NCBI RefSeq assembly: GCF_002797675.1
Contig: NZ_PGEX01000001.1
Location: 2,418,001 to 2,482,000 of the forward strand
From: Hallerella succinigenes
GTDB taxonomy: Bacteria; Fibrobacterota; Fibrobacteria; Fibrobacterales; Fibrobacteraceae
Length of the DNA stretch: 64,000 nucleotides
Reading direction: 5' to 3'
The notes below the pieces were generated by a model, which saw nothing but the letters and a program-made list of their open reading frames with translations, did no database searches and was not told where the DNA came from. Made by a program: the position numbers and the translations under genes. Numbering within the stretch: the first letter of the stretch is position 1; each line of letters opens with the position of its first letter. Positions 37,069 through 54,110 of this stretch are shown piece by piece.

Positions 37069-38178
37069 TTATTCCTCGTCCGACCTGTTTTCTTCGTGAA
37101 CGTCGGGATGCATGAACTTTAAGGCGTACACGACCGTTTCATGGCTCTTGCCTTTGAGTTCAAAAGTTCCCTTGGGCAGCGGATGGTAACGGCCCACGTT
37201 CGGCAAGGCTTCTAAAAGTTCTTTGGAAATCAGGAATTCTTCACCGAGCATTCTGCAAAGATCCTGCAGGCGGGATGTCGTGTTGATGGCGTCGCCGTGG
37301 TAAGCCATTTCACTGCGGAAGTTGCCGACTTCGGTCATGGTGACCTTTCCCCAGTGGGCTGCGGCCTTGAAAGTGGGGTAGGCACCGAATTCCGCGCGGA
37401 AGCGGCGACGTGTGCGGAAGAAACAACGCTTTAAGTCGCCAAAGCAAAGTATAGGACGGGGATTTTTACGGCAGGCGGAAAGCGGCCAGGTCAGGTAGAC
37501 GCCATCGCCTGCGATCTGGTAAATGTCGCCGCCGTTTTCTTCGCAGCAGTTCGACAGCAGTCGGTAGTATTCTTTGAGGAATCGGCTGTATTTGATGTGT
37601 CCCATCTGTTCGGCGAGGTGTGTCGATTGGCTAAGATCCACGAACATAAAGACGAGTTCGACTTCGGTCGGGTTCTGGGTCTTGCCGAGGACCGCGTTGA
37701 GAAATACGTTGAGACCGAACTTCTTGTTCACGGAACGGATGAACGTGATAAAGAATCCGCAGAGCACGCCGTAGATGGCGAAGGACTGGACAAATGGCAG
37801 TTGGAAAGCGTCGCGGATCGATTCTATTCCCTGCTCATCGATCAAAAATCCATCCTTGTACCAGTTCTGTACCAGAATGCAAAGCGTGATATCGATAAAG
37901 ACGACGGCGATAAAATACCAGAGACGAATGAGGAAGGCTCCGATAATCGGACGGGGGTCCTGATCGTCGTGAAGAACGATCACGTCGTAAACACCGTGCG
38001 AAAGCCCCGTCAGAATCGAGAACTGGAGCGCGTTCATGAAAAGGATCGGATCAAGCGCCTGGGGCGTGCCGTAAAAATGGAAATAGCAAAACAGCAAACT
38101 GAAAAAAGTCCAACAGCCTATGTAAAAGGCGATGGATTTGATTTTTCTCTTTTGAAGTCTTGTACTGATGATTGCCAT
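37069..38178 (-). CDS. Membrane class III adenylate/guanylate cyclase
   Basis: A 369-aa protein from ATG 38178 (AAAGG upstream); a GTG at 38214 would add 12 residues. Four hydrophobic segments lie in the first 170 residues, then a class III cyclase domain: metal Asp in FMFVDLSQSTHLAEQMG and in YQIAGDGVYLTW, the Asn/Arg transition-state pair in GDAINTTSRLQ, and a base-recognition Lys in FELKGKSHE. The key residues look intact, so it probably makes a cyclic nucleotide at the inner membrane. cAMP versus cGMP cannot be decided by eye. It follows a small membrane gene by eight bases. Confidence 0.85.
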   Translation of the reverse strand: MAIISTRLQKRKIKSIAFYIGCWTFFSLLFCYFHFYGTPQALDPILFMNALQFSILTGLSHGVYDVIVLHDDQDPRPIIGAFLIRLWYFIAVVFIDITLCILVQNWYKDGFLIDEQGIESIRDAFQLPFVQSFAIYGVLCGFFITFIRSVNKKFGLNVFLNAVLGKTQNPTEVELVFMFVDLSQSTHLAEQMGHIKYSRFLKEYYRLLSNCCEENGGDIYQIAGDGVYLTWPLSACRKNPRPILCFGDLKRCFFRTRRRFRAEFGAYPTFKAAAHWGKVTMTEVGNFRSEMAYHGDAINTTSRLQDLCRMLGEEFLISKELLEALPNVGRYHPLPKGTFELKGKSHETVVYALKFMHPDVHEENRSDEE

Positions 38179-38186
38179 AAGAGCCT

Positions 38187-38318
38187 TTAGTGCAAAAATA
38201 AGGGGAGGCTCCACAGCATCAAGGCAAGGAAAATTTCCTTATAGGAAGGCCCAAATAGAAGAGCGGAAACAAGAGCGAGAACGACCGACGACAGCAGAAA
38301 AAACAGGATGGAAGGCAT
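38187..38318 (-). CDS. Small two-helix membrane protein (43 aa or longer)
   Basis: MPSILFFLLSSVVLALVSALLFG and EIFLALMLWSLPLFLH are two hydrophobic segments split by GPSYK. The ATG at 38318 has AGG directly against it, a poor site; a GTG at 38360 would add 14 basic residues. The stop is eight bases before the cyclase ATG, and its stop region overlaps the cyclase ribosome site, which suggests coupling. It is not recognised as a known family and could be a chance frame, although the hydrophobic pattern supports it. Confidence 0.42.
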   Translation of the reverse strand: MPSILFFLLSSVVLALVSALLFGPSYKEIFLALMLWSLPLFLH

Positions 38319-39644: not shown

Positions 39645-42332
39645 ATGTTTCGTTGGTTCTTGAATTTTGTATCCGTAAGGATTTTTTGTGTCGTTGCTTT
39701 TTCGGCTGCGATGGTTTTTTCTGCTGTAGAATGCCCGGTTAAAGGCGCTTGCCGTTATTATTCCATTTATACGTCTCCGATTTCCTATTTGTGGACCGTT
39801 CCGGACGGTGTGGACACCTGGAATTCGGAGAGTGCGATTAAAGGCGCAAGCTTTTTGGTTTATGCGCCGAACGACACGCTCCTTTTGAATCCTTGTACAA
39901 AGGATTATTCGACGGGAAAAACGACCTGTTCGACAACGGATTCCCTTTCGCATCCGACGGCTTCGGTGACCGCCGATACGGTCAAGGGATTTGTCTATGT
40001 GAAGGCTTCTTCGCAGTTCCCGGCGACGCATATTCCGCTTGGAATGGCGGTCGATCCCAATGCGGAACCGGTGATTTTCCGCTATTACACGTTCTACGTG
40101 CCATATCTTGAATTTTCCTATATGAATGCGAAGGGCGATACGGTTGTGGTCGATGAAAAATCGGTTTTCAATCTGCCGGTGGATTCGTCTTTGACGGTCT
40201 TTGTGCGTTCGGTGATTCCAGTCGGTCCGGATTCCGGTTTGACGGATACGACGATCCACAAGCGTTCTTTTGCGCTGAATCCCAAGCGTGGCTCCGAAAA
40301 TCTCGTGTTTACGACCTTGGCGGGGGATACGACGGATCAGGTCATTTTGCAAAAGGGCGTTGGCGCTTTCCAGATTCATGCGGTCTCTGCGGTTTCGGGT
40401 GGGGAATTTACGGCGAGCGGTTTGGTGAACCCGTCGGATTCCTCGTATTTTGTGAACGAAACCTTCCCCGGTTCGCTCGCCTTTGAGTATTCGGATTTGC
40501 CGTCCCTCGACAGCGCCTTTATTTACGATGCAAACGGTGACGGTGTGGGCGATAGTATCATCGCTTATCTTTCTGGTAAAACGCAGACGGTTTCTCTCGA
40601 CAGCTTCTTTACCACCTGGCCGAACGGCAGCAAGCGCACACAGTATTCGGGCGATTACAATGTGAATGCCGAAGGGACGGTGCTCGAACTTTTAGACGTG
40701 AAGACATCCCTTGCCAAGGATTCCGCGACGGGTGAATTGATCGTGTATGTGACGTCGGAAGAGAGCGGTTCTGCGGCAGAACTCAGCACGGTTCTTCAGG
40801 ACCGTATCGGTCCTGCCATTCAGGGAGTGACTCTCATCAAGGGTCAGGGCGAAGCTCAGGACACCCTCGTCATCGACTTCAACAAGGATTTGGACACGTC
40901 GTTTACAGAAGGCTCTGTTCTGCAACTTGCGAACGGCGAAAAAGTGACCGTGAAGGCGATTTCGAAGGACGGCTCCCGTTGGATCTTTACAACGGATCCG
41001 GGCACTGTAGAAGTCGGGGATTCGCTTTCGGTGGTCGTCGGACTTGGCGACTTGGGCCTTGTGGCTGCAGACGGTAATGTAGCGACTTACAACTTGCCTG
41101 CGGAAGTAACGAATGCGGGCCATGTGTATCTGTCTAATGAAAACAACGGTTTCTTTGATTCGGACGGCGACGGCAAAATGGATTCCGTGACGATCGGCGT
41201 AGACAGCCCGATTACGCAAGAAGAACTCGCCAATTTGAACTTCCAATTTTTCTGGCTCGATTCCGCAAAAAATGAAATGATCATCACTCCGGATCCGGAA
41301 GATTTGACCCTTTCCGAAGACGGCAAAATTATTTCATACAAGCTTTCGAAAAAGGAACAGGCGATGGTAATGCCGAACCTCACATCGATTGACGATCCGA
41401 ATGCGTACGGCTATTCCGCAATGGAAAACATTACCGTCGTCAATGGAGATTCCAGCTCGACGATCCAGTATCTGAATATGAATGATCGTATGGCTCCGGT
41501 AATCACCTCCACTTTCCTCAATCCGGAATCGAGTAACGAAAAACGTCCGGACCGCTTGGTCATAACCTTCTCGGAATCAATCGATGTGAACGCGATCCGC
41601 AATCCGAACTTTATCGGCTTTGTCGTGGACGGTGATTCCGTGTACTTCGACTTCTCTTATGCAATCTGGAACGAAGACAGCTCGGAAGTTTCGCTGTTGC
41701 TCGGCGAAAATGACGATCTCTTGAACCGTGCAAATCCGAACGACTCCCTCTTCATCCATCCGTCCGCATCCTTTTCGGATAAGAGCGGTAATGCGGTCAG
41801 CGAAACTTCGAAGACCGTGACGATTGAAGGCGATCCGCGCGTGGTGATGGAAACGGCTTCGATGGTGGGTCTTGACCGTGTCGCTTTGGCAGATGACGGC
41901 CCAGAATTTACCGAACGTTTCTTCCCGGAAGGAACTTCGACTAAATCGGAAATGGGCAAGTCTTTGGGCGTGATGCTTGACGTCGCGTTCTCGACGATCT
42001 TTGCCGATTCTTCGGAAGGTGAACTGGATTTGGACAAGATCGGTTTGCACTGGTCGATGGAAATTTATACGAACACCGGATCCTTTGTGGCAAGTGCGAA
42101 TAATAAGATTCTTTGCAGCGACGAGGATTTTGGCGGAAACTGCTTTGAAAATGCGAAAAGACTTTACTTGCGCTGGAATTTACGTGCGAATTCAGGACGT
42201 AAAGCGGGCGTGGGCGTTTATCTGGCTCAGTTCCATTTGAAGGTGTACGGAAGCAAAAATTCCTACACTTATGATAAAATTTTCAAATGGGGTGTCCATG
42301 GTGGAAAGAATGGGCTTGCTTTGGATGATTGA
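39645..42332 (+). CDS. Large secreted protein with Ca-type DGDG repeats and FlgD-like C-terminus
   Basis: An 895-aa secreted protein. A signal peptide (VAFSAAMVFSAVE) leads to an N-terminal region with Cys pairs (VECPVKGACRYY; NPCTKDYSTGKTTC). From about 280 repeats carry Asp-rich calcium-like motifs (YDANGDGVGDSII; FFDSDGDGKMDSV) and Ig-like modules (DRMAPVITSTFLNPE; DRLVITFSESID). The last 100 residues form a FlgD-like domain (GRKAGVGVYLAQFHLKV) ending FKWGV. The same end recurs in the next gene, 15 bases later. The protein is probably exported to the cell surface; the end domain may be a sorting signal (Fibrobacterota have type IX secretion), but this is inference. Confidence 0.75.
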   Translation: MFRWFLNFVSVRIFCVVAFSAAMVFSAVECPVKGACRYYSIYTSPISYLWTVPDGVDTWNSESAIKGASFLVYAPNDTLLLNPCTKDYSTGKTTCSTTDSLSHPTASVTADTVKGFVYVKASSQFPATHIPLGMAVDPNAEPVIFRYYTFYVPYLEFSYMNAKGDTVVVDEKSVFNLPVDSSLTVFVRSVIPVGPDSGLTDTTIHKRSFALNPKRGSENLVFTTLAGDTTDQVILQKGVGAFQIHAVSAVSGGEFTASGLVNPSDSSYFVNETFPGSLAFEYSDLPSLDSAFIYDANGDGVGDSIIAYLSGKTQTVSLDSFFTTWPNGSKRTQYSGDYNVNAEGTVLELLDVKTSLAKDSATGELIVYVTSEESGSAAELSTVLQDRIGPAIQGVTLIKGQGEAQDTLVIDFNKDLDTSFTEGSVLQLANGEKVTVKAISKDGSRWIFTTDPGTVEVGDSLSVVVGLGDLGLVAADGNVATYNLPAEVTNAGHVYLSNENNGFFDSDGDGKMDSVTIGVDSPITQEELANLNFQFFWLDSAKNEMIITPDPEDLTLSEDGKIISYKLSKKEQAMVMPNLTSIDDPNAYGYSAMENITVVNGDSSSTIQYLNMNDRMAPVITSTFLNPESSNEKRPDRLVITFSESIDVNAIRNPNFIGFVVDGDSVYFDFSYAIWNEDSSEVSLLLGENDDLLNRANPNDSLFIHPSASFSDKSGNAVSETSKTVTIEGDPRVVMETASMVGLDRVALADDGPEFTERFFPEGTSTKSEMGKSLGVMLDVAFSTIFADSSEGELDLDKIGLHWSMEIYTNTGSFVASANNKILCSDEDFGGNCFENAKRLYLRWNLRANSGRKAGVGVYLAQFHLKVYGSKNSYTYDKIFKWGVHGGKNGLALDD

Positions 42333-42347
42333 TAGGAGGAATTGTTT

Positions 42348-45300
42348 ATGTTGATCGGGAAAAAATTCATTGCCTTAGGGTGGCTTTTAGTCGCAACGGC
42401 GATCGCATTTGCCGACAGTTCGGATTCCGTGACTGTCAATACTCCATATAATCCGGCAACGGGTATTTGGATTCAGCAGGTGGGTGACCTGTATCCGTCG
42501 GCAAGTACAACGGAAACGGTTTATTACACCCGTTACAGCGCACAGCTGAGTGCAAAGTCGCTCGACTATTACTATGATGGTAACGGCTACTTGAAGCTTT
42601 CGAACAAGAAGCTCCTTTGCCGCACTCCGGGTGCCGACGGGATTGTACACCATCCGGATGGAGACTTGCTTGTGGCGGGTCAGGGCAACAATGCGGTCTA
42701 TAAAGTGGACATGGATGCTTCGGATACGCTTACATCCGTTTGCGTGACAAAGACGGTCAAATCGGGCGTCGGTGCTTCGACTTATCACTTGATGGTGAAT
42801 CCGGATAATTCCGTCCTTTGGTCTGCGGGTATTCCGGGTAACCTGGTGACGTATGCAATTGATTCGGCGACAAACGGTCGTTTGGAAAAGATTCGCCAGG
42901 TGAAGGTTTCTGGGGATATTTCGAATATCACGACGATCCTGTGGGATCAGACCGGTCAGGCGTTCTATACGCGTTCGAGTAACCTCGGTACCATTTCCAA
43001 GTATTCTTCTAATAACGCTCAGTTCGGTATGATCGTGGATACGGTTTGCGCTATCAATGCGAATCCATGCCCGGCTAAGTACATTACAGGATTAAAAACC
43101 AAGACTTTGATCGACTCGTTGAAGGGTGCTCATGGTGCAAGCTTTGACGAATATTCGAATACGATTCTTTTGTTCGGCGACTCCCATATTGTGCAGATCG
43201 ATCCGACGACGAAAAAAGTCATTGCGGATGTGGACCTGCGTAAATATGTGTTCCCCGATAGTTTGATGACGGGTAGCTATTCGACGAACAGCGCTGAAAC
43301 GAGCGGTTATGCAATTCGCGGTTCGAATGAAATCCGTTGGCTTTTGGACCAGGGCACGGCAGACCACAAGGGACATATCTTTGTGGCTTCCAACTCGGGT
43401 CATTTGATTTTTCTCGACTACACGTCCAATCCGAATAAACTGATCAATAACAACATTTTGATTCACGTGCAGTGGATCGACAACTACTTGGATGATCTTG
43501 CTCCGATTGCAGGTGCAGGTTCAAACCGTACTTCCGCAAATACGAGCGGCGGAACGATTCTTTCTTCGAATTCTCACTCCTCTTCGAGTGCGCCGGTTTA
43601 TCACGAGTCTTCGAGCTCTGCGGTTTCTTCGAGTTCGAAGGAAAATTCTAGCAGTTCTTCGGGCGGCTCTAATACGCATTCCAGTTCAAGTGGTACATCG
43701 TATTCATCGAGCAGCGGCACTGGCACAGGCGACGATCCGAATTCATCGAGCAGCGGTACTGGCACGGGCGACAATCCGAATTCATCGAGCAGCGGCACTG
43801 GCACGGGCGACGATCCGAATTCATCGAGCAGCGGTACTGGCACGGGCGACGATCCAAAGTCTTCGAGCAGTGGCACTGGCACGGGCGACGATCCAAAGTC
43901 TTCGAGCAGTGGCACTGGCACGGGCGATGACGATGTGCCGGGCAGTTCGAGTTCGAGTGCCTCGGGCACTGGGGACGATTGGGTTCCGCCTTGGGTGAAC
44001 GATTCGACTTTCTATGAGGGCTTTGATGATGAAAATACGGAAACGCAGGACGGTTCCGACGTCTATCCGACCAACGATAAGCGCGATAAGGGCGATACCT
44101 TGGTGACGGAAGGCTCGAAGCTCATTCCGACTTCTTCGGATTCTTCTTCGGGATTGAATACGGTCGTCATCAACGGCAATACCTATGTGACGGATTCGAC
44201 GGCCTCTTCGACTCTGCTTCCGAGCTACGGTTCCGATACGACTTCGGCAACGGGCCGTGAAAATGTGAACGTGGGTGACGTTATCCAGATTACGCTTGAT
44301 GCAGGCAAGATCAAGGAATATTTCGAAGATGCGGATTCGATTTTCGTGTCCGGCTCGGATGGCCTACTCTTTGTGGATCCGACGAATCCGAGCAATCCGA
44401 ATGCGAATATCGCAGTCTCGGTCTCCGATTCGGACATTATGATTTGGGTGACGGCAGATACGGTCGTTTCTGTCGGCAGCATCTACTTTACGGATAAAGA
44501 CGGTCACTTGATCATCTTTGACGGCATTAACTTCTACGATCCGATTCCGAAGGCGGAAACCGCATATATCCAGGATTCGGACGATGACGGTTTCTTGGAT
44601 TCGCTCGAAGTGATTCTTGCAGATACGATTCCTGATGGCATGTCGGTCACGGGGCTTGCAATCGTCGTGGATGGGGACACCCTTGAAGTCAGCAGTGCGA
44701 TTACGGTTTCGGGATCGAGAATCTACGCAAGCGCTGAAGGCCTTTCTCTGGAATCGGAAAAGTTCCCGGAAGATGCGCGGGTCATTGTAACCTATACGAG
44801 CGAAACGGGTTCCAATTACCGCCGTGATTCTGAACTTTTGCAGCTCGGCTCTCACGTGATCAAGCAGGCTTATGCAATCCGCAACCAGAATGGCCGAGAC
44901 TCGCTTTTCGTCGAATTCAACATCGACATCATTCCGGCGGATTTGAACAATCCGGAGATGATCGTCTGGTTGAACGGCTTGGGCTTTGATCTCGACGAAG
45001 TCAGCGTTTACCTGCCGACGAAGAACATGATCATTCTCGTGGGAGATTCGCTTGGACTGAACGGTAGCACAGACTATGTGACTCTGGCTCCGGCGGCGAC
45101 TTTCCACAATCTTTCGTTTATTGCAACAGCGGAATACGACCGTCAGGTTCCGGTGACGGTGACGAATCGTTATCCAGCAGCTACTTCGGTGCAGTACTAC
45201 GATACGGATGGAGACGGCGCTCTCGATTCGATCTCGGTCCAGTTCTCTTCGAAGGTGACCGCGGAAGATCTCGAAAGCTTCTACTTCTCGTTCCCGTGGT

Positions 45301-46394
45301 ACAGCTCTCGTGGGCTTTTGATTGAACTCCAGGCTCAGCCGAGAGATTTGATCTTGAGCGCGGACGGCAAGAGTGTCGGCTGGATTGTGAAGAGCAATGT
45401 GAACGTGGCTTCGAACCTTACGAGCATTAGCTCGGAAATTCCGGCTGCAACGCTTTACACGTACTATGACATTTTCGGCAATTCCTTTGTGAATTCCCAG
45501 ACGATTTCGATCGAAGACAAAATGGCGCCTGTCATTGCATCGGCCACTCTCCATTACGGCGAAGAGTCGAAGCGCGATACGTTGACGGTGACCTTCTCGG
45601 AAGAGGTGGACTATTCTTCTCTGACGGGTAAGGACTTCTTTGCTTACATCCATGGCAAGGATACGATTGACCTGAATCCGGTGACGATTCTTTGGGCTTC
45701 GGATGGCAAGAGCGTTCGCTTGGTCCTTCGCGAATCCACGGATGGCATTGTGCCGGGAGACTCTTTGATGATCGTCGCTGGCGAAAAGTCGAAGATCTCG
45801 GATATCTACGGTAACGAATCGGTGGAAAATGCTTCGCCGGTCGTCATCGGAGGCTTGCTCGGCAAGATCGTGGAATCGGTGAACATGGGCTTCTTCGATC
45901 CGGAAAAGTATGTGGAGAACACGCTGAATTCGGTGTCGATCTCGTACGTTTCGAATCAGACGCGTACTTCCGATTTGCGTGACGAAGGGACGCTAGGACA
46001 TTTGATTTCCCTCGGCGAACGCTTTGTTCCGCAGCTGATTGACGGCGCAAAGATCGATGCAGACGGCAATTACGACTCTTCGGTCCTCGACAGTATCGAT
46101 CCGGCTGACGTGTTTGTGAACTTCAGCGTAAGCTACTTCGACAATCAGGGTCAGTATGTGACGGACACAACGTTCAACATTCCGTGTAACAGCCCTGCAT
46201 TCGGAACGAATCAGAACTGCTTGACGACGGATAAGAAGGTGTTTGTCAACTGGAATTATAAGGATCACACCGGTCGTTTGGTCGGCGCAGGGGTCTATAT
46301 TGTCCAGTTCAAGCTCGTTGTCCGCTACAAACAAAAGAAAATTCAGGAAGAAATGCGTGACAAGTGGGGCGTTCGTCGGAAAAAGAAGAAATAA
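42348..46394 (+). CDS. Giant secreted beta-propeller/Ser-rich linker protein
   Basis: A 1,348-aa protein; AGGAGG precedes ATG 42348. A signal peptide (LLVATAIAFAD) is followed by a beta-propeller-like region (about 25-385; LLCRTPGADGIVHHPDGDLLVAGQG; ILLFGDSHIVQIDPTTKKVI). A Ser-rich linker (about 395-560) includes six copies of SSSSGTGTGDDPN. The rest is Ig-like modules with Asp motifs (QDSDDDGFLDSLEV; YYDTDGDGALDSISV; DKMAPVIASATLHYG) matching the preceding protein, and the C-terminus has GRLVGAGVYIVQFKLVV then DKWGVRRKKKK. It is probably surface-attached and may act in adhesion or display; no catalytic motif is seen. Confidence 0.75.
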   Translation: MLIGKKFIALGWLLVATAIAFADSSDSVTVNTPYNPATGIWIQQVGDLYPSASTTETVYYTRYSAQLSAKSLDYYYDGNGYLKLSNKKLLCRTPGADGIVHHPDGDLLVAGQGNNAVYKVDMDASDTLTSVCVTKTVKSGVGASTYHLMVNPDNSVLWSAGIPGNLVTYAIDSATNGRLEKIRQVKVSGDISNITTILWDQTGQAFYTRSSNLGTISKYSSNNAQFGMIVDTVCAINANPCPAKYITGLKTKTLIDSLKGAHGASFDEYSNTILLFGDSHIVQIDPTTKKVIADVDLRKYVFPDSLMTGSYSTNSAETSGYAIRGSNEIRWLLDQGTADHKGHIFVASNSGHLIFLDYTSNPNKLINNNILIHVQWIDNYLDDLAPIAGAGSNRTSANTSGGTILSSNSHSSSSAPVYHESSSSAVSSSSKENSSSSSGGSNTHSSSSGTSYSSSSGTGTGDDPNSSSSGTGTGDNPNSSSSGTGTGDDPNSSSSGTGTGDDPKSSSSGTGTGDDPKSSSSGTGTGDDDVPGSSSSSASGTGDDWVPPWVNDSTFYEGFDDENTETQDGSDVYPTNDKRDKGDTLVTEGSKLIPTSSDSSSGLNTVVINGNTYVTDSTASSTLLPSYGSDTTSATGRENVNVGDVIQITLDAGKIKEYFEDADSIFVSGSDGLLFVDPTNPSNPNANIAVSVSDSDIMIWVTADTVVSVGSIYFTDKDGHLIIFDGINFYDPIPKAETAYIQDSDDDGFLDSLEVILADTIPDGMSVTGLAIVVDGDTLEVSSAITVSGSRIYASAEGLSLESEKFPEDARVIVTYTSETGSNYRRDSELLQLGSHVIKQAYAIRNQNGRDSLFVEFNIDIIPADLNNPEMIVWLNGLGFDLDEVSVYLPTKNMIILVGDSLGLNGSTDYVTLAPAATFHNLSFIATAEYDRQVPVTVTNRYPAATSVQYYDTDGDGALDSISVQFSSKVTAEDLESFYFSFPWYSSRGLLIELQAQPRDLILSADGKSVGWIVKSNVNVASNLTSISSEIPAATLYTYYDIFGNSFVNSQTISIEDKMAPVIASATLHYGEESKRDTLTVTFSEEVDYSSLTGKDFFAYIHGKDTIDLNPVTILWASDGKSVRLVLRESTDGIVPGDSLMIVAGEKSKISDIYGNESVENASPVVIGGLLGKIVESVNMGFFDPEKYVENTLNSVSISYVSNQTRTSDLRDEGTLGHLISLGERFVPQLIDGAKIDADGNYDSSVLDSIDPADVFVNFSVSYFDNQGQYVTDTTFNIPCNSPAFGTNQNCLTTDKKVFVNWNYKDHTGRLVGAGVYIVQFKLVVRYKQKKIQEEMRDKWGVRRKKKK
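43703..43936 (+). repeat. Six 39-bp in-frame tandem repeats
   Basis: Units start at 43703, 43742, 43781, 43820, 43859 and 43898 and encode SSSSGTGTGDDPN/K. Only a few bases differ among them, so copy number can change by slippage or recombination. Confidence 0.92.
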
Positions 46395-46422: not shown

Positions 46423-47181
46423 ATGCTTCAAATTGGAAAAACGGAATCAGCCTTGAATGCGGCAATCGAAAAACGCGGCGCTTTGTTCGCCGTGTTGCTC
46501 GACCCGGATACTTCGGACGATACAGCTCTCTTGAAAGCGGGCTCCATGGCTGCGGAAAACGGCGCAGACCTTTTGCTTGTGGGCGGCTCGTTCATGGGAA
46601 ATTTCAAGTTGCCGGACCAGGTGGCGGCTCTCAAGAAAGAAGTTTCGCTTCCGGTGGTACTTTTCCCGGGAGGCGCTTCTCAGGTTGTGCCGGGCTTTGA
46701 TGCCGTCCTTTTCATTACGCTTGTTTCTGGACGGAATCCGAATTACCTGATCGATGAACAGGTGCGCGGTGGCGTCCTCATCCGTTCTCTTGGCATGGAA
46801 GCGATTCCGACCGCTTACGAGCTAATCAATAGCGGAAAACCGACTGCGGTGGAATACATCAGCAATACTTCTCCGATTCCGGCGGATAAACCAAAGCTTT
46901 CGATGGTGCATTCGATTGCGGCGGAACTCATGGGCATGCGCTACGTGTATTTAGAGGCGGGTTCTGGCGCAGAATTGCCGGTGCCGGTGGAACATATCGC
47001 CTACACGCGAAAAGCGACGCAGATGAAGATTATTACAGGCGGTGGCATCCGTGAACCGGAAACCGCTCATGCTCGCGTTGCTGCGGGAGCGCAGATCATT
47101 GTGACGGGCACCCTTTGGGAAAAGGTGAAGGACCCGGTTCTGCTTCAGGAATTCGCGGCGTCAATCCACGTAAAGGGTTAA
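46423..47181 (+). CDS. GGGP synthase-like prenyltransferase (PcrB/GGGPS family)
   Basis: A 252-aa TIM barrel. FAVLLDPDTSDD gives the Mg-binding Asp, and the phosphate/glycerol-phosphate pocket shows in LLVGGSFMG, VVLFPGGASQV, YVYLEAGSGAELPV, KIITGGGIRE and IIVTGTLWEK. GGGPS enzymes join sn-glycerol-1-phosphate to a prenyl diphosphate, the first step of archaeal-type ether lipids; bacterial members also occur. Start 46423 is taken because it gives the family N-terminus; the upstream frame overlaps the previous gene. A TATATT hexamer lies ten bases before the start. Chain length and lipid fate are unknown. Confidence 0.87.
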   Translation: MLQIGKTESALNAAIEKRGALFAVLLDPDTSDDTALLKAGSMAAENGADLLLVGGSFMGNFKLPDQVAALKKEVSLPVVLFPGGASQVVPGFDAVLFITLVSGRNPNYLIDEQVRGGVLIRSLGMEAIPTAYELINSGKPTAVEYISNTSPIPADKPKLSMVHSIAAELMGMRYVYLEAGSGAELPVPVEHIAYTRKATQMKIITGGGIREPETAHARVAAGAQIIVTGTLWEKVKDPVLLQEFAASIHVKG

Positions 47182-47209: not shown

Positions 47210-47241
47210 CTCCGAAGGAACTTCCCCTCGGAGATTTTTTA
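47210..47241 (+). terminator. Terminator/attenuator hairpin covering next gene's ribosome site
   Basis: CTCCGAAGG/CCCTCGGAG (one mismatch, loop AACTTC) followed by ATTTTTT and then ATG at 47241. It looks like a terminator for the GGGPS-like gene, but its 3' arm contains the GGAG ribosome site of the following gene, so it may control entry into the operon. Confidence 0.6.
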
Positions 47242-47477
47242 TGGATAAGAAAATTGTTTTGACGTATGGGCTACGTTTACTCGGTGTCGTTTTGGTTTTG
47301 ATGTATTTCTTTGGACATCCTTTGCTGAATCGCATCTTCCCGGGTTTTCCGATCTCTTCGCTCAATTATTTCTTCTATGCGGGACTGCTCTGTTATTTGA
47401 TTGGCGCAGTGCTTTATTACGTATTCAACCGAAAGACGTTGAAGAAGATGGCGAAGGGGAATGAGGACGAATTATGA
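47241..47477 (+). CDS. Small two-helix membrane protein
   Basis: A 78-aa protein with two hydrophobic helices (TYGLRLLGVVLVLMYFFG and NYFFYAGLLCYLIGAVLYYVF) and a basic/acidic tail. GGAG precedes the ATG, inside a hairpin. Its TGA overlaps the ABC ATPase ATG (ATGA). It heads the six-gene exporter/ATPase/autotransporter operon. No family is recognised; it could be an accessory subunit of the exporter. Confidence 0.75.
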   Translation: MDKKIVLTYGLRLLGVVLVLMYFFGHPLLNRIFPGFPISSLNYFFYAGLLCYLIGAVLYYVFNRKTLKKMAKGNEDEL

Positions 47478-48388
47478 TTGAAGTGGAGAATCTCCAAAAG
47501 ACGTATCACTCGGGATTTTTCATGCGTCCCAAAAAGGCGCTTACCGATGTGACCTTCCATGTGCCGAAGGGTGTCATCTACGGTTTTATCGGCCCGAACG
47601 GCGCCGGAAAATCGACGACGATCAAACTGCTCACAGGGCTTCTCCGTAAGGATTCGGGAAAGATTCTCGTCGCAGGCTTTGAACCTTCGAAGGTCGAAAG
47701 TCGCAAGCACTTAGGATATTCCCCTGAACAGCCGTACTTTTACGATTACCTCACCGGTCGCGAACTGATGCGTTTTTACGGACGCTTGTGCGGCCTTGAT
47801 GGTAAGCCTCTCGAAGACCGCATCACGTGGGCGCTTTCGCTTTTGAATGCGGACAAGGATTGGATCGACCGCAGGCTGCGCACCTATTCGAAAGGGATGA
47901 TGCAGCGCGTAGGCATTGCCCAGGCGATTCTTTCTAAGCCGGAACTCCTGATTCTCGATGAACCGATGAGCGGACTTGACCCGGTGGGTCGTAAGGATGT
48001 CCGTGAAGCGATCCTTTCCTTGAACAAGGAAGGCGTGACCGTATTCTATTCAAGCCACTTGCTTTCGGATGTGGAAACGATCAGTCATCGTGTGGCGATG
48101 GTCGTGGGCGGTAAGATCGTTCGCGAAGGTACAGTGGATGACATTACGTTGAATACTTCTGCGGAATATCACGTTCACGTGGCTGCTGACATTCCAGATG
48201 CGGATCTTCCGCAAGATGTGAAACCGCAGGGAACGACTCCGCGCGAATGGGTCTGCAAGAATGCAGAAGCCCGCGACCGCTTCATTGATTTTTGTCTCAA
48301 GTCTGGACTTCCGATTGAACGCATGGAACATCAGCGTCCGAGCCTGGAAGACGTTTTGACCGAGGAGATTGCTCGTGCAGAACATTAA
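47474..48388 (+). CDS. ABC-2 exporter ATPase
   Basis: A 304-aa ABC ATPase with Walker A GPNGAGKSTT, signature YSKGMMQRVGIAQAIL, Walker B LLILDEPMSGLDPVGR, the D-loop and switch His in FYSSHLLSDVE. A C-terminal extension of about 80 residues follows, as in NosF/CcmA-like exporter ATPases. It pairs with the permease gene, which starts inside its end. The substrate could be a lipid, polysaccharide or protein component of the operon; this is not shown by sequence. Confidence 0.92.
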   Translation: MIEVENLQKTYHSGFFMRPKKALTDVTFHVPKGVIYGFIGPNGAGKSTTIKLLTGLLRKDSGKILVAGFEPSKVESRKHLGYSPEQPYFYDYLTGRELMRFYGRLCGLDGKPLEDRITWALSLLNADKDWIDRRLRTYSKGMMQRVGIAQAILSKPELLILDEPMSGLDPVGRKDVREAILSLNKEGVTVFYSSHLLSDVETISHRVAMVVGGKIVREGTVDDITLNTSAEYHVHVAADIPDADLPQDVKPQGTTPREWVCKNAEARDRFIDFCLKSGLPIERMEHQRPSLEDVLTEEIARAEH

Positions 48389-49178
48389 GAATATTGGAAT
48401 TATCGCGTTGAACACCTTCCGCGAATCCGTTCGAAACAAGGTGCTCTATAACATCGTGTTCTTGGCGATTGCGCTTGCCTTTTTTAGCATCTTGCTCGGC
48501 GAATGGTCTGTCTTTGACCGTGCGCATGTGATCAAGTCTACGACTCTCAGCATCATGTCGATTTCGGGCCTTTTGATTTCCGTCTTTGTGGGCATTAGCC
48601 TTGTACAGAAGGAAATCCAGGGACGAACCGTTTTGACCTTGCTTTCGAAGCCGATTAGCCGTGCGGTGTTTATCGTCGGCAAGTATCTTGGCCTTTTGGG
48701 AGTGATTGCGGTACACCTTGCCTTGCTGACCGTGGTCTATTACGTGATCCTTGCACTGACCGGTTCGAATCCGACGCTTTCCCTTTTGAACGCGGTGTAT
48801 TTGATTTTCTGGGAAATGGCGATTGTCGTTGCCGTGGCGCTTCTCTTCTCGACCTTTTCGAGTCCGGTGCTTTCAGCTCTTTTCACAATCGGCATTTACA
48901 TGGCTGGACGTCTTTCCAATGAACTCATGGAACAGGTGAACTTTGTGCGCCGCGTGGGTGAAATCGAAGGCGGTCAGGGTGTGGTTTTGGAAAAGGTGGC
49001 GAGCTTGATTCACGCGGTGTTCCCGGGTCTTTACCGTTTTGATATTTCTGCCTATGTGGTGCATAACGTTGCGCTTCCGACTCATTACATCTTCTGGAAT
49101 AGCTTGTATGCTCTGGGCTATATCGGAGTGTTCCTTGCGATTGCCAGCTGGTGGTTTAGCCGTAGGGATTTCGTATGA
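48375..49178 (+). CDS. ABC-2 exporter permease
   Basis: A 267-aa protein with about six transmembrane segments, starting QNIKNIGIIALNTFRESVRNK, the interfacial helix of ABC-2/NosY-type permeases. TM1 is ALAFFSILL and a conserved stretch is KEIQGRTVLTLLSKPISRAVFIVGKY. GTG 48375 with GAGGAG seven bases before it is the likely start; it overlaps the ATPase gene by 14 bases. Its stop overlaps the next ATG (ATGA). Confidence 0.85.
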   Translation: MQNIKNIGIIALNTFRESVRNKVLYNIVFLAIALAFFSILLGEWSVFDRAHVIKSTTLSIMSISGLLISVFVGISLVQKEIQGRTVLTLLSKPISRAVFIVGKYLGLLGVIAVHLALLTVVYYVILALTGSNPTLSLLNAVYLIFWEMAIVVAVALLFSTFSSPVLSALFTIGIYMAGRLSNELMEQVNFVRRVGEIEGGQGVVLEKVASLIHAVFPGLYRFDISAYVVHNVALPTHYIFWNSLYALGYIGVFLAIASWWFSRRDFV

Positions 49179-50821
49179 TGACAAAAAACCAAATCATGGC
49201 CAAGGTCCTGTTCTCGAACAATTTGGTTTCGGAACGGCAGATTCAAGAGTATTGGGGTAAAATCGATGCGTCGCACGACCTCGGCGAACTCTTGCTCGAA
49301 GCTGGGATTCTCGATCAGCAGACCTATGCTGCGGTTTCGCAGTATGTCCAGGATTTGGAAGTCAAGCTGAAGGCGGCGGAAGAAGCCAAGGCTGCACAGA
49401 CAAAACAGGAACAGGCAAATCCTGCATCTTCTGCATTTGAACGCCCGAAGGCGGCCGCTCCGAAGCCCGCGCAGAAACCTGCTCCAACGTCGAAACCCGC
49501 TCCAGTTGCAGAAGCTCCGAAGACGGATGCAGAAAAGCCTCTGGCTTTGGAAGGCAATAATCCGTATGGGGAATCCACTGCGACAAGCGTTCAGATTGAA
49601 AAGGTCGAAGGCTTGGAACAGACGCGCATTGCCCCGGTCGCCATCGCCTCTGCAGAAGAAGAACTGATGGCAGACGACAAGCCTGTGGAAGAGGCTTTGC
49701 CGGACCGCTTTGAAATCGAAAGCGGGGAAGGGTCGATTGCTGTTCCGAGTCAGCTAACGAATGAAAATTCTCTCGCCGAAATCTTGGCGTTTGCCAGAAA
49801 TTATAAAGCGACGGACGTTTATCTTTCGGCAACCGCTCCGATCGCGATGCGAGTCTGCGGCTCGGTCCATTACGTGAACGAGAATCCGTTTGATGCTTCG
49901 CAACTTTCGAAACTGCTTTCCGAAGCCAAGCTGGGCTTTGCGGATGGATACGAACCGGTTGTCGGGGTGGATTTTAGCAAGTCCTTTGCTCTTGCCGGTG
50001 CAGGCCGTAACCGTTTGACGGTCACGTGGAACGATACGATTCCTTCGCTTGCCATCCGTGTGATTTCGGCGGAATCAATCCCGCTCGATAAGCTTTACCT
50101 GCCGCCGTTCTGTGCCGATTTTTTGGATTTGCCGCACGGCCTTGTGTTGATTGCAGGCCCTTCGGGAAGTGGGCGTTCGACGACGATTGGCGCCTTTGGC
50201 GAAGCTCTTTCTCAAAAGCGCTTTGTCCTTTTGGAATCCATAGAAAAGCCGGTGGAACGTTTGCTTTCAAATGGGAATGGCATGACGGTGCAGAAGGAAG
50301 TCGGCTTGCATGCAAAATCCGGTGTTTCGGCTTTGCACGATGCTGTGCAGGCTGGGGCGGGCGTGATTCTTTTTGACCATCTCGAAACGGTCGATGAACT
50401 TTGGGCTGCTTTGCAGGCCTCTTCGGCAGGCGCGCTCGTGTTTGCTGTGGCTGCCGGCAATGATGTTTACGGTTTGCTTTCTCGCTTGCTCAGTGCGGCT
50501 GCGGATCGTGAAGATGAGCTCGCCGCAGCTCTTTCCGATGAACTGAAGGGAGTCATTGTTCAACACTTGATTCCGGTGATCGATAATCAGGATCAGGTGC
50601 TCGCTGTAGAAGCGTTGAAGGTGACTTTTTCGATTGCGAATTTGATCCGTCGCAGGGAACTGATTCAGCTTCCGTCTGCGATTGCGGCTGCCAAGAATTT
50701 GGGACTCAGCTTGGATGATTCCTTGCAGAACCTGGTGGAATCCGGTTATATTCGCGGGGAAGACGCCTGGCAGCGTTCTTTGAACCGTCGCCGTTTTGCG
50801 GCATACCGTCCTAAGAAGTAA
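49175..50821 (+). CDS. PilT/GspE-like ATPase with P-loop Lys replaced by Arg
   Basis: A 548-aa protein. Residues 1-65 resemble the GspE N-terminal module (FSNNLVSERQIQEYWGKI, LGELLLEAGILDQQTY), followed by an Ala/Pro/Lys-rich linker (80-190) and a PilT-like ATPase from about 200. The P-loop is GPSGSGRSTT (R334 where Lys is needed), the Asp box is ESIEKP, and Walker B reads GVILFDHLETVDE without the GE pair; the PilT HxxT box is absent. ATP hydrolysis is therefore doubtful. It probably partners the second PilT-like protein encoded 13 bases later. Confidence 0.78.
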   Translation: MMTKNQIMAKVLFSNNLVSERQIQEYWGKIDASHDLGELLLEAGILDQQTYAAVSQYVQDLEVKLKAAEEAKAAQTKQEQANPASSAFERPKAAAPKPAQKPAPTSKPAPVAEAPKTDAEKPLALEGNNPYGESTATSVQIEKVEGLEQTRIAPVAIASAEEELMADDKPVEEALPDRFEIESGEGSIAVPSQLTNENSLAEILAFARNYKATDVYLSATAPIAMRVCGSVHYVNENPFDASQLSKLLSEAKLGFADGYEPVVGVDFSKSFALAGAGRNRLTVTWNDTIPSLAIRVISAESIPLDKLYLPPFCADFLDLPHGLVLIAGPSGSGRSTTIGAFGEALSQKRFVLLESIEKPVERLLSNGNGMTVQKEVGLHAKSGVSALHDAVQAGAGVILFDHLETVDELWAALQASSAGALVFAVAAGNDVYGLLSRLLSAAADREDELAAALSDELKGVIVQHLIPVIDNQDQVLAVEALKVTFSIANLIRRRELIQLPSAIAAAKNLGLSLDDSLQNLVESGYIRGEDAWQRSLNRRRFAAYRPKK

Positions 50822-50834
50822 AGGAGATGTGAGC

Positions 50835-51842
50835 ATGGCGAATTCTCTGGATACGTTTTTGAATTATGCGTTGCAGATTGGCGCTTCGGATTTGATTTTG
50901 GCGGAAGGACTTGTGCCTGCTGTGCGTATTGCAGGACAGGTGCGCATGATTCCGGATGCTCCCAAATTAGAGTTCGGCGATTTGGAAAACTTTTTAGGTC
51001 CGCTAGACGGAGAAAGCGGCGCTTTTCGCGGTGGCCCGTGGGAAAATATCGAATGGCGCGTGCGCTATTCACGTGAAGCTTTCGGTAAGATGGCGACATT
51101 GCATCCGATTGGCTTGGACGCTCCGATGCTCGCTTCGCTAGAGGTTCCGGATTCGGTGACGAGCCTGCTTGGCGCCTGTTCGGGAATTGTTCTGTTTGCA
51201 GGTCCGATGGCGTGCGGTAAGACGACGACGGCTTCGGCTTATGTTTCGGAACTTTGCACAAAGAAGGTTCTCCGCGCGAGCTTCCTCGATCCTCTGCCGG
51301 AATACAAAATGCAGACCGGTCAGAGCCTTGTCAAAAAGAACCGCGCACATGTATCGCTTGTCGATGAAATCGCCCAGAACGTTCTTTCTGGAACCGACCT
51401 TTTCTGGCTCGGAGATCTGCAAGCGGAATCCTGCGTCCCCATGCTCAAAGCCGCAGAATCGGGCGCGCTGGTCGTCGCCACGGTCAATGCAGGCAGTGTC
51501 AAGGACGTTTTGACGTATCTGCTTTCCGCAGAAACCGCGGAAAATAAAAAGCTCGCCCAGACGCTTCTCGCCGCAAACTTGAAGGCGATTGTCACGCAAA
51601 GGCTTATCCTTTCTGCAGACCAGACATCTCTTGTTTCGGCGTGGGAAGTGCTTTACAACGACACGAACATTGCACCGCTCATTCACGCAGGCGAATATTA
51701 CAAGGTTCCTCAGGCGATGCGTTCCGCTATTTCGGAAGGAATGCTCCCGCTCGACGATTCCTTGCTCGCACTGGTGAAGGATAACCGCATTACGAAGGAT
51801 GCGGCTCGCCTTTACGCGGTCGATGAATCGCACTTTCTGTAG
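50835..51842 (+). CDS. PilT-like ATPase, P-loop intact, other motifs altered
   Basis: A 335-aa protein starting with PilT-like LDTFLNYALQIGASDLILAEG. Walker A is intact as GPMACGKTTT (123-132), but the Walker B region reads LFWLGDLQAESCVPMLKAAESGALVVATVNAGS, where PilT has VGEMRD and HTNSA; the catalytic Glu becomes Asp and both His boxes are lost. The C-terminal AIRNLIRE retraction motif is absent. It may bind ATP and form mixed rings with the upstream protein. No pilin or pilus assembly genes are nearby. AAGGAG sits eight bases before ATG 50835. Confidence 0.78.
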   Translation: MANSLDTFLNYALQIGASDLILAEGLVPAVRIAGQVRMIPDAPKLEFGDLENFLGPLDGESGAFRGGPWENIEWRVRYSREAFGKMATLHPIGLDAPMLASLEVPDSVTSLLGACSGIVLFAGPMACGKTTTASAYVSELCTKKVLRASFLDPLPEYKMQTGQSLVKKNRAHVSLVDEIAQNVLSGTDLFWLGDLQAESCVPMLKAAESGALVVATVNAGSVKDVLTYLLSAETAENKKLAQTLLAANLKAIVTQRLILSADQTSLVSAWEVLYNDTNIAPLIHAGEYYKVPQAMRSAISEGMLPLDDSLLALVKDNRITKDAARLYAVDESHFL

Positions 51843-51863
51843 TCGGTAAAAGGAGAACGGCTC

Positions 51864-54110
51864 ATGAGCATTTTCCAAAGCGGATGTGCCGCAATCCTTT
51901 TTGCAAGTGCATTGATTTTTGCACAAGGCGAAACAGTCGTTTCAACGCAAGATTCTGCCGTTTCAAATGAACAGCTCGTTTCACATGAACAGCTCGTTTC
52001 AAACGAACGGTCTGTTTCAAATGAACAACCCGTTCCACAAAAAACGGTCCTTTATCTCGGCGGGGGAGCATATTCTCCATGGTATTCGCTCGGCGTCTTG
52101 TATGCGGTGCGTGATTACCGCATTCCGGTGGATTCTGTCGTAGGAACCTCTTGGGGCGCATTCATCGGAGCCCTTTGGAGTCAAGGCTTTGAACTGGACA
52201 ACATCCAAAGATTGATCACAGACTCGCTTTTTGTTTCTCAGCTTCTTTCTAAAAATGCAGCGGAAAAGCCTTTGGTGAATCTTCCGATTTCCAAATCGGG
52301 AACACCGTCGCTTGCCTTCCGTTATGCGTTCTTTGGGGATTCTGATGGTTATGCGCATTTTCGTGCAAAAGATCTGGATCCGGATTCCGCCGCTTATAGC
52401 CGGGCCCTTTTTCGCTTTCAAATTCAAGAGGCTTTAACGCGAGCGGATTCCAGTGTGGTACCGTTTACCGCACTCGCCTGCAAAGAGGGAACTCTTGTTT
52501 CGTCAACGGCCTTGGCTTCGCTTCCGTTCCGCGAAACTTCGGGGGAAAACTGCCCGACTTTTGTGCCACAGGATTCCGCTTTTGCCCTTTACGTGAGCGC
52601 GTATCCGCTGCGAAAGAGCCTTTCTCACGACGGTGTGATGACAATTGCCGGCTTTGAAAACGCTCTTGAACAGGTGCGCCTGCAAAAAGAAGATTCCTCT
52701 CGGCATTTGGTCGTCATCCGTCCGCATGTCGTTTCGGAAGATTCGCCGCTTGCCTTGATGCAGTTGGGTTACTCGGATGTTGAAAAGAAAATGGGGGAGC
52801 TTGCTCCGATTGCCAAATTTGCCAAGGATCGCCCGCCTCCACAAGATTCCATTCTTCCGCGCTTTACCATTGAACCGTCTTTTGAAAGTTTGCCGTCCGC
52901 TTCCTATTCGCATGTATCTGCGTATTGGAACGAAGCGGATACAGGTCTTCAGGCACCGGCCAAGTTCTTGAAGCGGATTTCTGAATCGCCTTTCTATGAT
53001 TCTGTACAAATTAATATGGACTCCGTGGGCATCGCCAAAGTCTCGGCAAAGACGACTCCGATTCTAGAATTCCGAGTGGGCGGTTTCGGGTCCAATCTTT
53101 TTGGGCCTCTTGCTTATGCGGGCATGGATTTTCGCTATGTGAATCAGTTTGAATATGCGTTTACCGTGGACGGCTATGTGGGGGAATATTCTTACGCGGT
53201 CCGTCCGATTCTTGGAATTCACGGTATGTTCGGCGGTCGTGGAAGCGTTTCCGTCCAAGGAAATATTTCCAAGCGGGAACCGCTCAAAGGATATTTTTCG
53301 GATTTCGACGAGGAACTTCGCATTCTGGAAGTCCGCGAAAACGATTTGACTTTAGCCTTGGATTACAAGGATTCTGCATTGGACATCGTCGTGAGCGTTC
53401 TCCTTGGAGAATCGGAATTTAAAACGTCTCTTTCGGAAGATTTCGGAACGTTACATGTGAATTCCTGGATTCCGCAGGTTTCTCTTGTTCGCAGTCGGGG
53501 AGGCTTTGAAGAATGGTTTGGCAGTCGCGGTTACCGCTTGCAGGGAAACTTAGGGCTGCGGTCGGTGAACCTTACCTCCGATGGCTCGGGAAGCGCTCCG
53601 CTGTATTTTTCGTCGACGCTCGATGCGCAAAAGGCTTTTGCTCCAACGGATTTTCTAGCTCTTGGGATCGGAGCGTCGGGGGCTGTAAATGTGCGTCGGA
53701 AATCGGGCTACGGTTATGAATATCCCGAAGATCTGGAAGTCTTTCCAGAGGTGACGGATCCTGCAATCAGCAACTGGTTTCGCTTGCACGCGGCACTTTC
53801 CCCTTGGAGTGAAGCCTGGAATTATGCAGAACAAAGCTCGCATCATTACGGAGCGATCCGTGCAAATGCGGGCTTGCACAATGGAATCTTTGGCGCCTGG
53901 ATTTTTGGCGCGTATATGCGCGACTTTGAAGAAAATCCGACCGTGGAACTCGATGCTGACAGGCTTCTCTTGGAATCGATGCTCCGGGTTGCATACCGCA
54001 GCGTGGACGTACGCGTCGGTATGAGCCGTCTAGTTTCCTTAAAAGATTTTAGCGACTTCACCCATGTGAAGCAGTATCACTACTTCTTCCAGGTCGGAGC
54101 GAATTGGTAA
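51864..54110 (+). CDS. Type Vd-like patatin autotransporter
   Basis: A 748-aa protein: signal peptide (ALIFAQG), hexapeptide repeats (34-57), a patatin phospholipase domain (60-330) with nucleophile S96 in GTSWG and Asp256 in SLSHDG, a POTRA-like segment (about 350-400, APAKFLKRISESPFYDSVQI), and a 16-strand-type barrel ending FFQVGANW with a terminal aromatic. This matches PlpD-type autotransporters that display a lipase at the outer membrane. The oxyanion loop is GGGAYSPWYSLG rather than GGGxRG, so activity is uncertain. It closes the six-gene operon; MltG converges four bases later. Confidence 0.82.
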   Translation: MSIFQSGCAAILFASALIFAQGETVVSTQDSAVSNEQLVSHEQLVSNERSVSNEQPVPQKTVLYLGGGAYSPWYSLGVLYAVRDYRIPVDSVVGTSWGAFIGALWSQGFELDNIQRLITDSLFVSQLLSKNAAEKPLVNLPISKSGTPSLAFRYAFFGDSDGYAHFRAKDLDPDSAAYSRALFRFQIQEALTRADSSVVPFTALACKEGTLVSSTALASLPFRETSGENCPTFVPQDSAFALYVSAYPLRKSLSHDGVMTIAGFENALEQVRLQKEDSSRHLVVIRPHVVSEDSPLALMQLGYSDVEKKMGELAPIAKFAKDRPPPQDSILPRFTIEPSFESLPSASYSHVSAYWNEADTGLQAPAKFLKRISESPFYDSVQINMDSVGIAKVSAKTTPILEFRVGGFGSNLFGPLAYAGMDFRYVNQFEYAFTVDGYVGEYSYAVRPILGIHGMFGGRGSVSVQGNISKREPLKGYFSDFDEELRILEVRENDLTLALDYKDSALDIVVSVLLGESEFKTSLSEDFGTLHVNSWIPQVSLVRSRGGFEEWFGSRGYRLQGNLGLRSVNLTSDGSGSAPLYFSSTLDAQKAFAPTDFLALGIGASGAVNVRRKSGYGYEYPEDLEVFPEVTDPAISNWFRLHAALSPWSEAWNYAEQSSHHYGAIRANAGLHNGIFGAWIFGAYMRDFEENPTVELDADRLLLESMLRVAYRSVDVRVGMSRLVSLKDFSDFTHVKQYHYFFQVGANW
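51960..52031 (+). repeat. Four 18-bp coding repeats
   Basis: gtttcaaatgaacagctc and close variants encode V-S-N-E-Q-L-like hexapeptides just after the signal peptide of the patatin autotransporter. Confidence 0.85.

Follow-up and report, generated by a model that had tools for sequence, protein, structure and literature searches.

Organization of the operon

The 64,000-nucleotide stretch of Hallerella succinigenes DNA analyzed here (the window) belongs to a closed genome of 3.13 Mb and carries, at 2465-2472 kb of that genome, an operon of six genes that encodes a small membrane protein, an ATP-binding cassette (ABC) pair, two PilT-family proteins and a patatin-barrel protein. All six lie on the forward strand. 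The first gene, TM78 (47241..47477), gives no family match over the cut-off. Its end overlaps by 4 bases (ATGA) with the gene for a PilH-type ABC ATPase (47474..48388; ABC_tran, E-value 5e-28), in which Walker A, signature, Walker B and His switch are all legible. The PilI-type ABC-2 permease (48375..49178; ABC2_membrane_2, 4e-9) starts with GTG within a 14-base overlap, and a second ATGA of 4 bases leads from it into PilTA (49175..50821). PilTB, which consists of a PilT-family core (50835..51842), follows after a gap of 13 bases, and PAT, a patatin-barrel protein of the PL-Omp85 type (51864..54110; Patatin, 8.3e-7), after a gap of 21 bases. Both PilTA and PilTB match T2SSE (2.3e-12 and 1.1e-11). 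A first-pass annotation had described this layout as six overlapping or tightly spaced genes with no gap above 21 bases, and coordinates, overlaps and gaps are all as first given. Scans for promoters and terminators gave no signal beyond chance level.

Conservation and selection in the Fibrobacteraceae

The distribution of the operon was followed through PilTA, which was searched for in 60 relatives, 37 of them Fibrobacteraceae (family code f1). Strong matches (E below 1e-60) are present in 25 of the 37, the copy of genome G018 being split over two contigs, and G011 adds a weaker, degenerate copy. This search found no PilTA in the nine genomes of genus g6 or in G022 (71% complete), and a remnant only in G013. 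Among 24 loci compared, i.e. the window and 23 fetched neighborhoods, 22 have the full series TM78-ABC-permease-PilTA-PilTB-PAT in this order; these are all of the uncut loci (22/22) and represent eight genera (g1, g2, g3, g4, g5, g8, g10 and g11). The other two (L040 and L049) run into contig ends and show the same order up to that point. Some genes were masked by antisense frames during open reading frame calling and were recovered by profile search in Fibrobacterota loci. Such a recurrence of six genes in one order is more than chance. In the Fibrobacteraceae loci seen, a TM78 homologue precedes the ABC gene, even where PilTA and PilTB are missing; in the g6 loci seen, the PilT pair is gone and PAT is unlinked, while TM78-ABC-permease is kept.

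Selection was estimated as the ratio of nonsynonymous to synonymous substitution rates (dN/dS) in eight genome pairs; ratios are given where computable, and the more distant pairs show saturation at synonymous sites. The values are 0.02-0.09 for ABC ATPase and permease, 0.02-0.19 for PilTA, 0.05-0.10 for PilTB and 0.10-0.17 for PAT. Constraint on TM78 is weaker, with ratios of 0.38 and 0.80 for two close pairs. Because dN/dS is low, PilTA, PilTB and PAT are regarded as selected proteins and not as relics. Pseudogene decay of these three was also considered as a candidate explanation and is ruled out by ratios of 0.02-0.19. Taken together, the sequences show one operon of predicted ABC exporter, PilT pair and PL-Omp85 protein that is fixed in the majority of the Fibrobacteraceae. 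The coupling first proposed for the window, which joins an ABC-2 pair to two PilT-family proteins of atypical kind and to a patatin-Omp85 protein, extends across most of the family.

A PilT pair with lost catalytic residues

The structural model of PilTA (predicted local distance difference test score, pLDDT, 81) comprises a helical domain (residues 1-80), a disordered linker (82-172) and a PilT-fold core (197-545). The nearest known structure to this core is PilT4 of Geobacter (6okv, Z 40.6, root-mean-square deviation 2.1, 346 residues). The PilT model TIGR01420 recognizes PilTA at 7e-51 and PilTB at 2.9e-33, both under its curated cut-off of 319 bits. Across the 24 loci, the Walker A lysine of PilTA is replaced by arginine in 23, the window included, and is kept only in G012; the catalytic glutamate and the His-box histidine are absent from all 24 PilTA proteins. 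PilTB retains the Walker A lysine in 23/24 loci (threonine in G015), its catalytic glutamate has become aspartate in 20, as in the window protein, and asparagine in four, and the His-box histidine is gone in 24/24. The description of the two proteins as PilT-like ATPases in the first-pass annotation is not supported in this respect, the catalytic glutamate being missing from each protein in every locus. Canonical pilT genes are present elsewhere in the same genome.

Outside the family, pairs of the same layout were compared from 11 loci: six Fibrobacterota loci (from g15 and G059), L095 and L212-L215. Walker A lysine and catalytic glutamate are intact there in 11/11 PilTA and 11/11 PilTB proteins, and the His-box histidine is found in 11/11 PilTB and 5/11 PilTA. 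A profile scan with the g15-type PilTA returned chiefly canonical PilT genes, with a clear pair only at L095 among 80 loci. The Fibrobacteraceae proteins resemble a PilT-type pair found intact elsewhere, and seem to have lost catalysis within the family. Further stages are seen in single genomes. In G011, all six genes are present and the P-loop is missing from both PilTA and PilTB. In G013, a 143-residue protein made up of the PilTA N-terminal domain only (L084:6140-6568) overlaps the start of PAT, TM78-ABC-permease being on a different contig, and the pair seems to be reduced to its docking domain. Decay beyond the lysine-to-arginine exchange thus leaves the block in place, with all six genes in G011 and with the N-terminal domain beside PAT in G013. 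The genomes show, as far as residues can be read as stages, a presumably active pair, a lysine-to-arginine pair, a P-loop-free pair and the N-terminal domain alone. Sequence comparison indicates that PilTA and PilTB of the Fibrobacteraceae have lost the residues for hydrolysis yet evolve under purifying selection.

Residues 1-80 of PilTA match the helical half with which the MshEN/N1 region of PilB proteins begins (hhalign probability 95%, E 3e-8), and the best of 20 column-shuffled control alignments reached 0.5%. In a Pfam search of 32 PilTA proteins, MshEN was not among the 25 families listed. By hhalign, PilTA of g15 (99%) and that of the L095 group (96%) share this N-terminal domain with the family, though a direct comparison of the former two gives no match (6%). 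We take RLGxxL...Q to be the cyclic di-GMP motif of MshEN, and its arginine and glutamine positions differ in the PilTA of the window. Domains of the MshEN/N1 type separate extension from retraction ATPases and probably dock on the stator, as stated in the available text of PMC11656802. Profile comparison shows that the PilT core of PilTA carries an N-terminal domain of PilB type, and PilTA can therefore be described as an extension-type dock joined to a retraction-type core.

PAT, a PL-Omp85 protein with an apparently eroded active site

The model of PAT (pLDDT 84.6) consists of an N-terminal helix that resembles a signal peptide, a patatin domain (58-317), a POTRA-like segment (~340-397) and 16 beta strands (400-744). 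The patatin part matches PlpD in structure (5fya, Z 20.1 over 201 residues) and in sequence (5fqu, E 2.8e-10), and the remainder, a barrel, matches BamA/TamA (Z ~20). PAT is a PlpD-like PL-Omp85 protein with patatin domain, POTRA and 16-strand barrel. Its active site looks eroded: although the serine elbow is kept in 22/27 PAT homologues, that of the window included, the serine is lost in five, the oxyanion motif GGGxRG is found in 0/27, and no aspartate of the window protein stands opposite the Asp-Gly-Gly of a canonical homologue, in a region of weak alignment. The patatin domain of PlpD has been shown to be periplasmic (available part of PMC11116518). A surface lipase of the type Vd kind, as which PAT had been introduced, is unlikely because the patatin domain of this nearest relative stays in the periplasm, and the apparently eroded site does not favor it either.

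Patatin genes accompany the other components outside the family in two settings. In genus g15, a weak and equally eroded PAT homologue lies near ABC-permease in 6/6 permease-bearing genomes; in these loci (L063-L068), two genes on the opposite strand separate the PAT homologue, which has no GGG motif, from ABC-permease. The intervening genes look like ThpR and CutA. On L095 (9704-14957), a contig of a metagenome-assembled genome, a canonical PL-Omp85 gene begins 175 bases after an apparently intact PilTA-PilTB pair.

The ABC pair and its third protein

The permease is present in 49/60 Fibrobacterota genomes, and its profile retrieves a Geomonas permease at E 2.2e-29. In this Geomonas locus (L236), the permease, a TPR-like protein (TPRx) and the ATPase come after pilA in a pilB-pilT-pilR-pilA cluster, which was checked by Pfam except for pilT, identified with a canonical-PilT profile. 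In G065, the genome to which L095 belongs, an ABC-permease-TPRx triad (L217) stands between pilM/pilO and secretin plus pilT. TPRx follows the permease in 12/13 G065-relative genomes with a strong match; in the remaining one (L224), its place is covered by a called antisense frame. Of the 60 genomes, 47 carry permease as well as TPRx, nine carry neither, and four are discordant (two with the permease only, two with TPRx only), all of them Fibrobacteraceae of 71-87% completeness. Outside the family, 15 genomes carry both and eight neither, with no discordant case. The g13 genomes (4/4) are without permease, TPRx and any match in the PilTA search. In the window genome, TPRx, of PilG type, is found far from the operon (G000:C1:622405-623043, E 3.0e-15). 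TPRx adjoins its presumed transporter in the G065 group, unlike in the window genome.

By homology and by organization, the ABC pair corresponds to the PilGHI transporter of Myxococcus and Geobacter pilus clusters. The PilGHI layout of Myxococcus and its mutants without pili are known from Wu et al. (1998), as cited in the available text of PMC3724824 and PMC6060248. It had also been noted that no pilin genes are near. This is correct for ~36-64 kb of the window, yet misleading, because the ABC pair is itself of a pilus-associated type.

Flanking genes

Upstream of the operon, a gene for PcrB/GGGP synthase (46423..47181, forward strand; NF003198, 1.1e-82, above cut-off) ends 59 bases before TM78 and is outside the module by the count used. 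Downstream of PAT, on the opposite strand, follows an MltG/YceG homologue. The presence of PcrB and MltG beside the block varies by genus; PcrB adjoins it in some genera, and in others it lies at a distance of kilobases or was not observed. Immediately 5' of PcrB are two very large tandem genes (39645-46394; 895 and 1350 aa). The second contains repeats rich in Ser and in Gly-Thr. Pfam gave no match for either gene, and among the fetched loci homologues at the same place occur in genus g1 only. The product of the gene at 37069-38214 has a cyclase catalytic domain of the guanylate/adenylate type (Pfam, 1.7e-7).

Interpretation

The operon looks like a pilus-derived machine that is kept for a role other than that of a motor. 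The reading tentatively preferred here, which we rate as somewhat short of probable, is that it represents a family-wide envelope module derived from type IV pili (T4P), in which a non- or barely hydrolyzing PilT ring clamps or scaffolds and does not pull. We infer that PilTA and PilTB would still form rings and serve as such a clamp or scaffold. The N-terminal domain of PilTA may dock the rings on a PilM-like stator, and their PilT face would dock on a platform, which may be the one PilC that the genome encodes or else the permease of the operon itself. The window genome has pilT-pilC at 2288418-2290649, with one PilC gene (a 401-residue frame with two T2SSF domains), and one secretin match at 549577; a pilus-type target is therefore probably a single machine. 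A docked ring that is unable to cycle could hold the machine in one state, by analogy with PilT Walker B mutants that hinder retraction: in Vibrio cholerae, PilT E204A is hyperpiliated and seldom retracts, and the K136A form still permits retraction driven by PilU (both from the available text of PMC6821130). The ABC exporter, together with the PilG-like protein encoded elsewhere and with the PL-Omp85 barrel, would act at the same envelope site, and in sessile, fiber-bound Fibrobacter static attachment may be favored over retraction. Holding rather than pulling fits these bacteria because flagella are lost in the Fibrobacteraceae and pili are implicated in the adhesion of F. succinogenes (according to the available parts of PMC4704652 and PMC3079729, respectively). 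The former source, in the same part, counts three PilT genes in strain S85.

A narrower version, possible but doubtful, holds that throughout a bacterial family a retraction-type PilT pair has been converted into a pseudo-ATPase dedicated to another task. As a ring of naturally Walker-mutant proteins with a dock of the extension type, it would lock or scaffold an envelope machine, the lower part of which would be the PilHI-type exporter and the upper part a PL-Omp85 barrel without catalytic activity.

Several observations weigh against the clamp or scaffold. Beside the operon, neither a pilin nor any other pilus gene was found in the ~36-64 kb part of the window. G051, G052, G054 and G055 are without permease and TPRx yet have PilT-family matches, and the triad is away from recognizable pil genes in 12/13 G065-group genomes with a strong permease; at L237 it is likewise not near pil genes. 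Outside the Fibrobacteraceae, a patatin gene stands beside the pair in 1/12 loci (L095; the others are five further loci of the G065 group and six Fibrobacterota loci outside the family). Finally, a tree that was built twice neither supports nor rejects orthology of PilTB between the family and elsewhere (approximately unbiased test, p-AU 0.41 for grouping). The first-pass annotation had itself named a pair accompanied by ordinary pilus genes in relatives, with unlinked ABC and patatin genes, as a sign against one unit. The pair is indeed near pilus genes in two relatives, as a canonical pilT and a PilC-like gene come directly after PAT in G017, and a cluster with secretin that resembles type II secretion systems (T2SS) or T4P begins ~2.4 kb past PAT in G009; ABC and patatin genes are linked to the full pair wherever examined in Fibrobacteraceae. 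For the motility or predation machine that had been suggested, no supporting neighbor or paper was found.

The main rival, which we consider unlikely but nearest to the preferred reading, is that the PilT pair left the pilus and gates or regulates the ABC exporter of its own operon; jointly with the PL-Omp85 protein, this exporter would carry lipids or lipoproteins across the envelope, or edit them, in a Tam- or Mla-like manner. It would account for the translational coupling of permease and PilTA (ATGA), for the linkage of ABC, pair and PAT in the family and of ABC-permease with a degenerate PAT homologue in 6/6 permease-bearing g15 genomes, for the adjacency of PcrB, an ether-lipid enzyme, in several genera and for the likeness of the PAT barrel to TamA/BamA; the g6 loci seen, in which TM78-ABC-permease persists without the pair and with PAT unlinked, also fit it. 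However, PilTA retains a PilB-type N-terminal domain, the known or inferred partners of which are pilus or T2SS stator proteins (available text of PMC11656802), the ABC triad is of the PilGHI type, and no sign of a lipid substrate was seen.

That the genes are mere operon neighbors, i.e. unrelated but co-regulated envelope genes that carry a decaying motor pair along, is improbable. The linkage of pair and PAT in just one of the 12 outside loci, the g6 genomes that manage without the pair and the G013 remnant, which could be a relic, are in its favor. Against it stand purifying selection on operon members, an order that is unbroken in all uncut loci of eight genera while the flanks change, and the recurrence of the same neighbors in separate lineages (ABC-permease and PAT homologue in g15, pair and PAT in L095). 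Least probable of all is an active, unusual retraction motor of the PilT/PilU kind that tolerates the exchanges of lysine for arginine and glutamate for aspartate and hydrolyzes ATP slowly: PilTB keeps its Walker A lysine in 23/24 loci and an acidic aspartate at the glutamate site in 20/24, and the PilT fold is complete in the model, but the catalytic glutamate is missing from 48/48 proteins, the His box is gone, the PilTA lysine is replaced in 23/24, G011 retains both proteins without a P-loop, and canonical pilT genes are available in the same genome.

Significance

In the open-licence PMC literature searched, no report was found of the fixed combination, of catalysis lost from a PilT pair across most of one family beside intact sister lineages, or of a PilB-type dock on a PilT core, and the operon is not mentioned in the available parts of the F. 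succinogenes genome paper (PMC3079729) and of a phylogenomic study of the Fibrobacteres (PMC4704652). Work on pilus motors relies on engineered Walker mutants, and natural ones seem to be maintained here over most of a family. As sister lineages with an intact pair exist beside these natural mutants, a non-catalytic role of the ring becomes testable. For the PilGHI-type ABC exporters and the PL-Omp85 proteins, both of them poorly understood families, the operon additionally offers a lead to function by association, in bacteria that attach to cellulose.

Comparison with known systems

Each part of the operon has a known relative. With PilGHI of the Myxococcus and Geobacter T4P clusters, it shares, as judged from sequence, a homologous ATPase, a permease and a TPR-like third protein, as well as the co-occurrence of the last two. 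It differs in that the third gene is not adjacent in the Fibrobacteraceae, the ABC pair is joined to PilTA, PilTB and PAT instead of pilA, and the operon is located outside the pil cluster of the window genome. PlpD of Pseudomonas aeruginosa, a PL-Omp85 ('type Vd') protein, has the same patatin domain, POTRA and 16-strand Omp85 barrel as PAT; in the latter, however, the oxyanion arginine and the Asp-Gly motif appear not to be conserved, the serine is lost in 5/27 homologues, and the gene is in an operon with pilus-type genes. The helical N-terminal domain of PilTA is like the MshEN/GSPII N1 domain of PilB, MshE and GspE, but it is fused to a PilT-type core. Finally, PilT and PilU (PilT4 of Geobacter, 6okv/6ojx; PilU, 9n32) resemble the pair in the fold of the PilTA core (Z ~40) and in the tandem arrangement of two PilT-family genes, whereas PilTA and PilTB are without catalytic glutamate and His box, PilTA has arginine in place of the Walker A lysine, and it carries an N-terminal domain of the extension-ATPase type.

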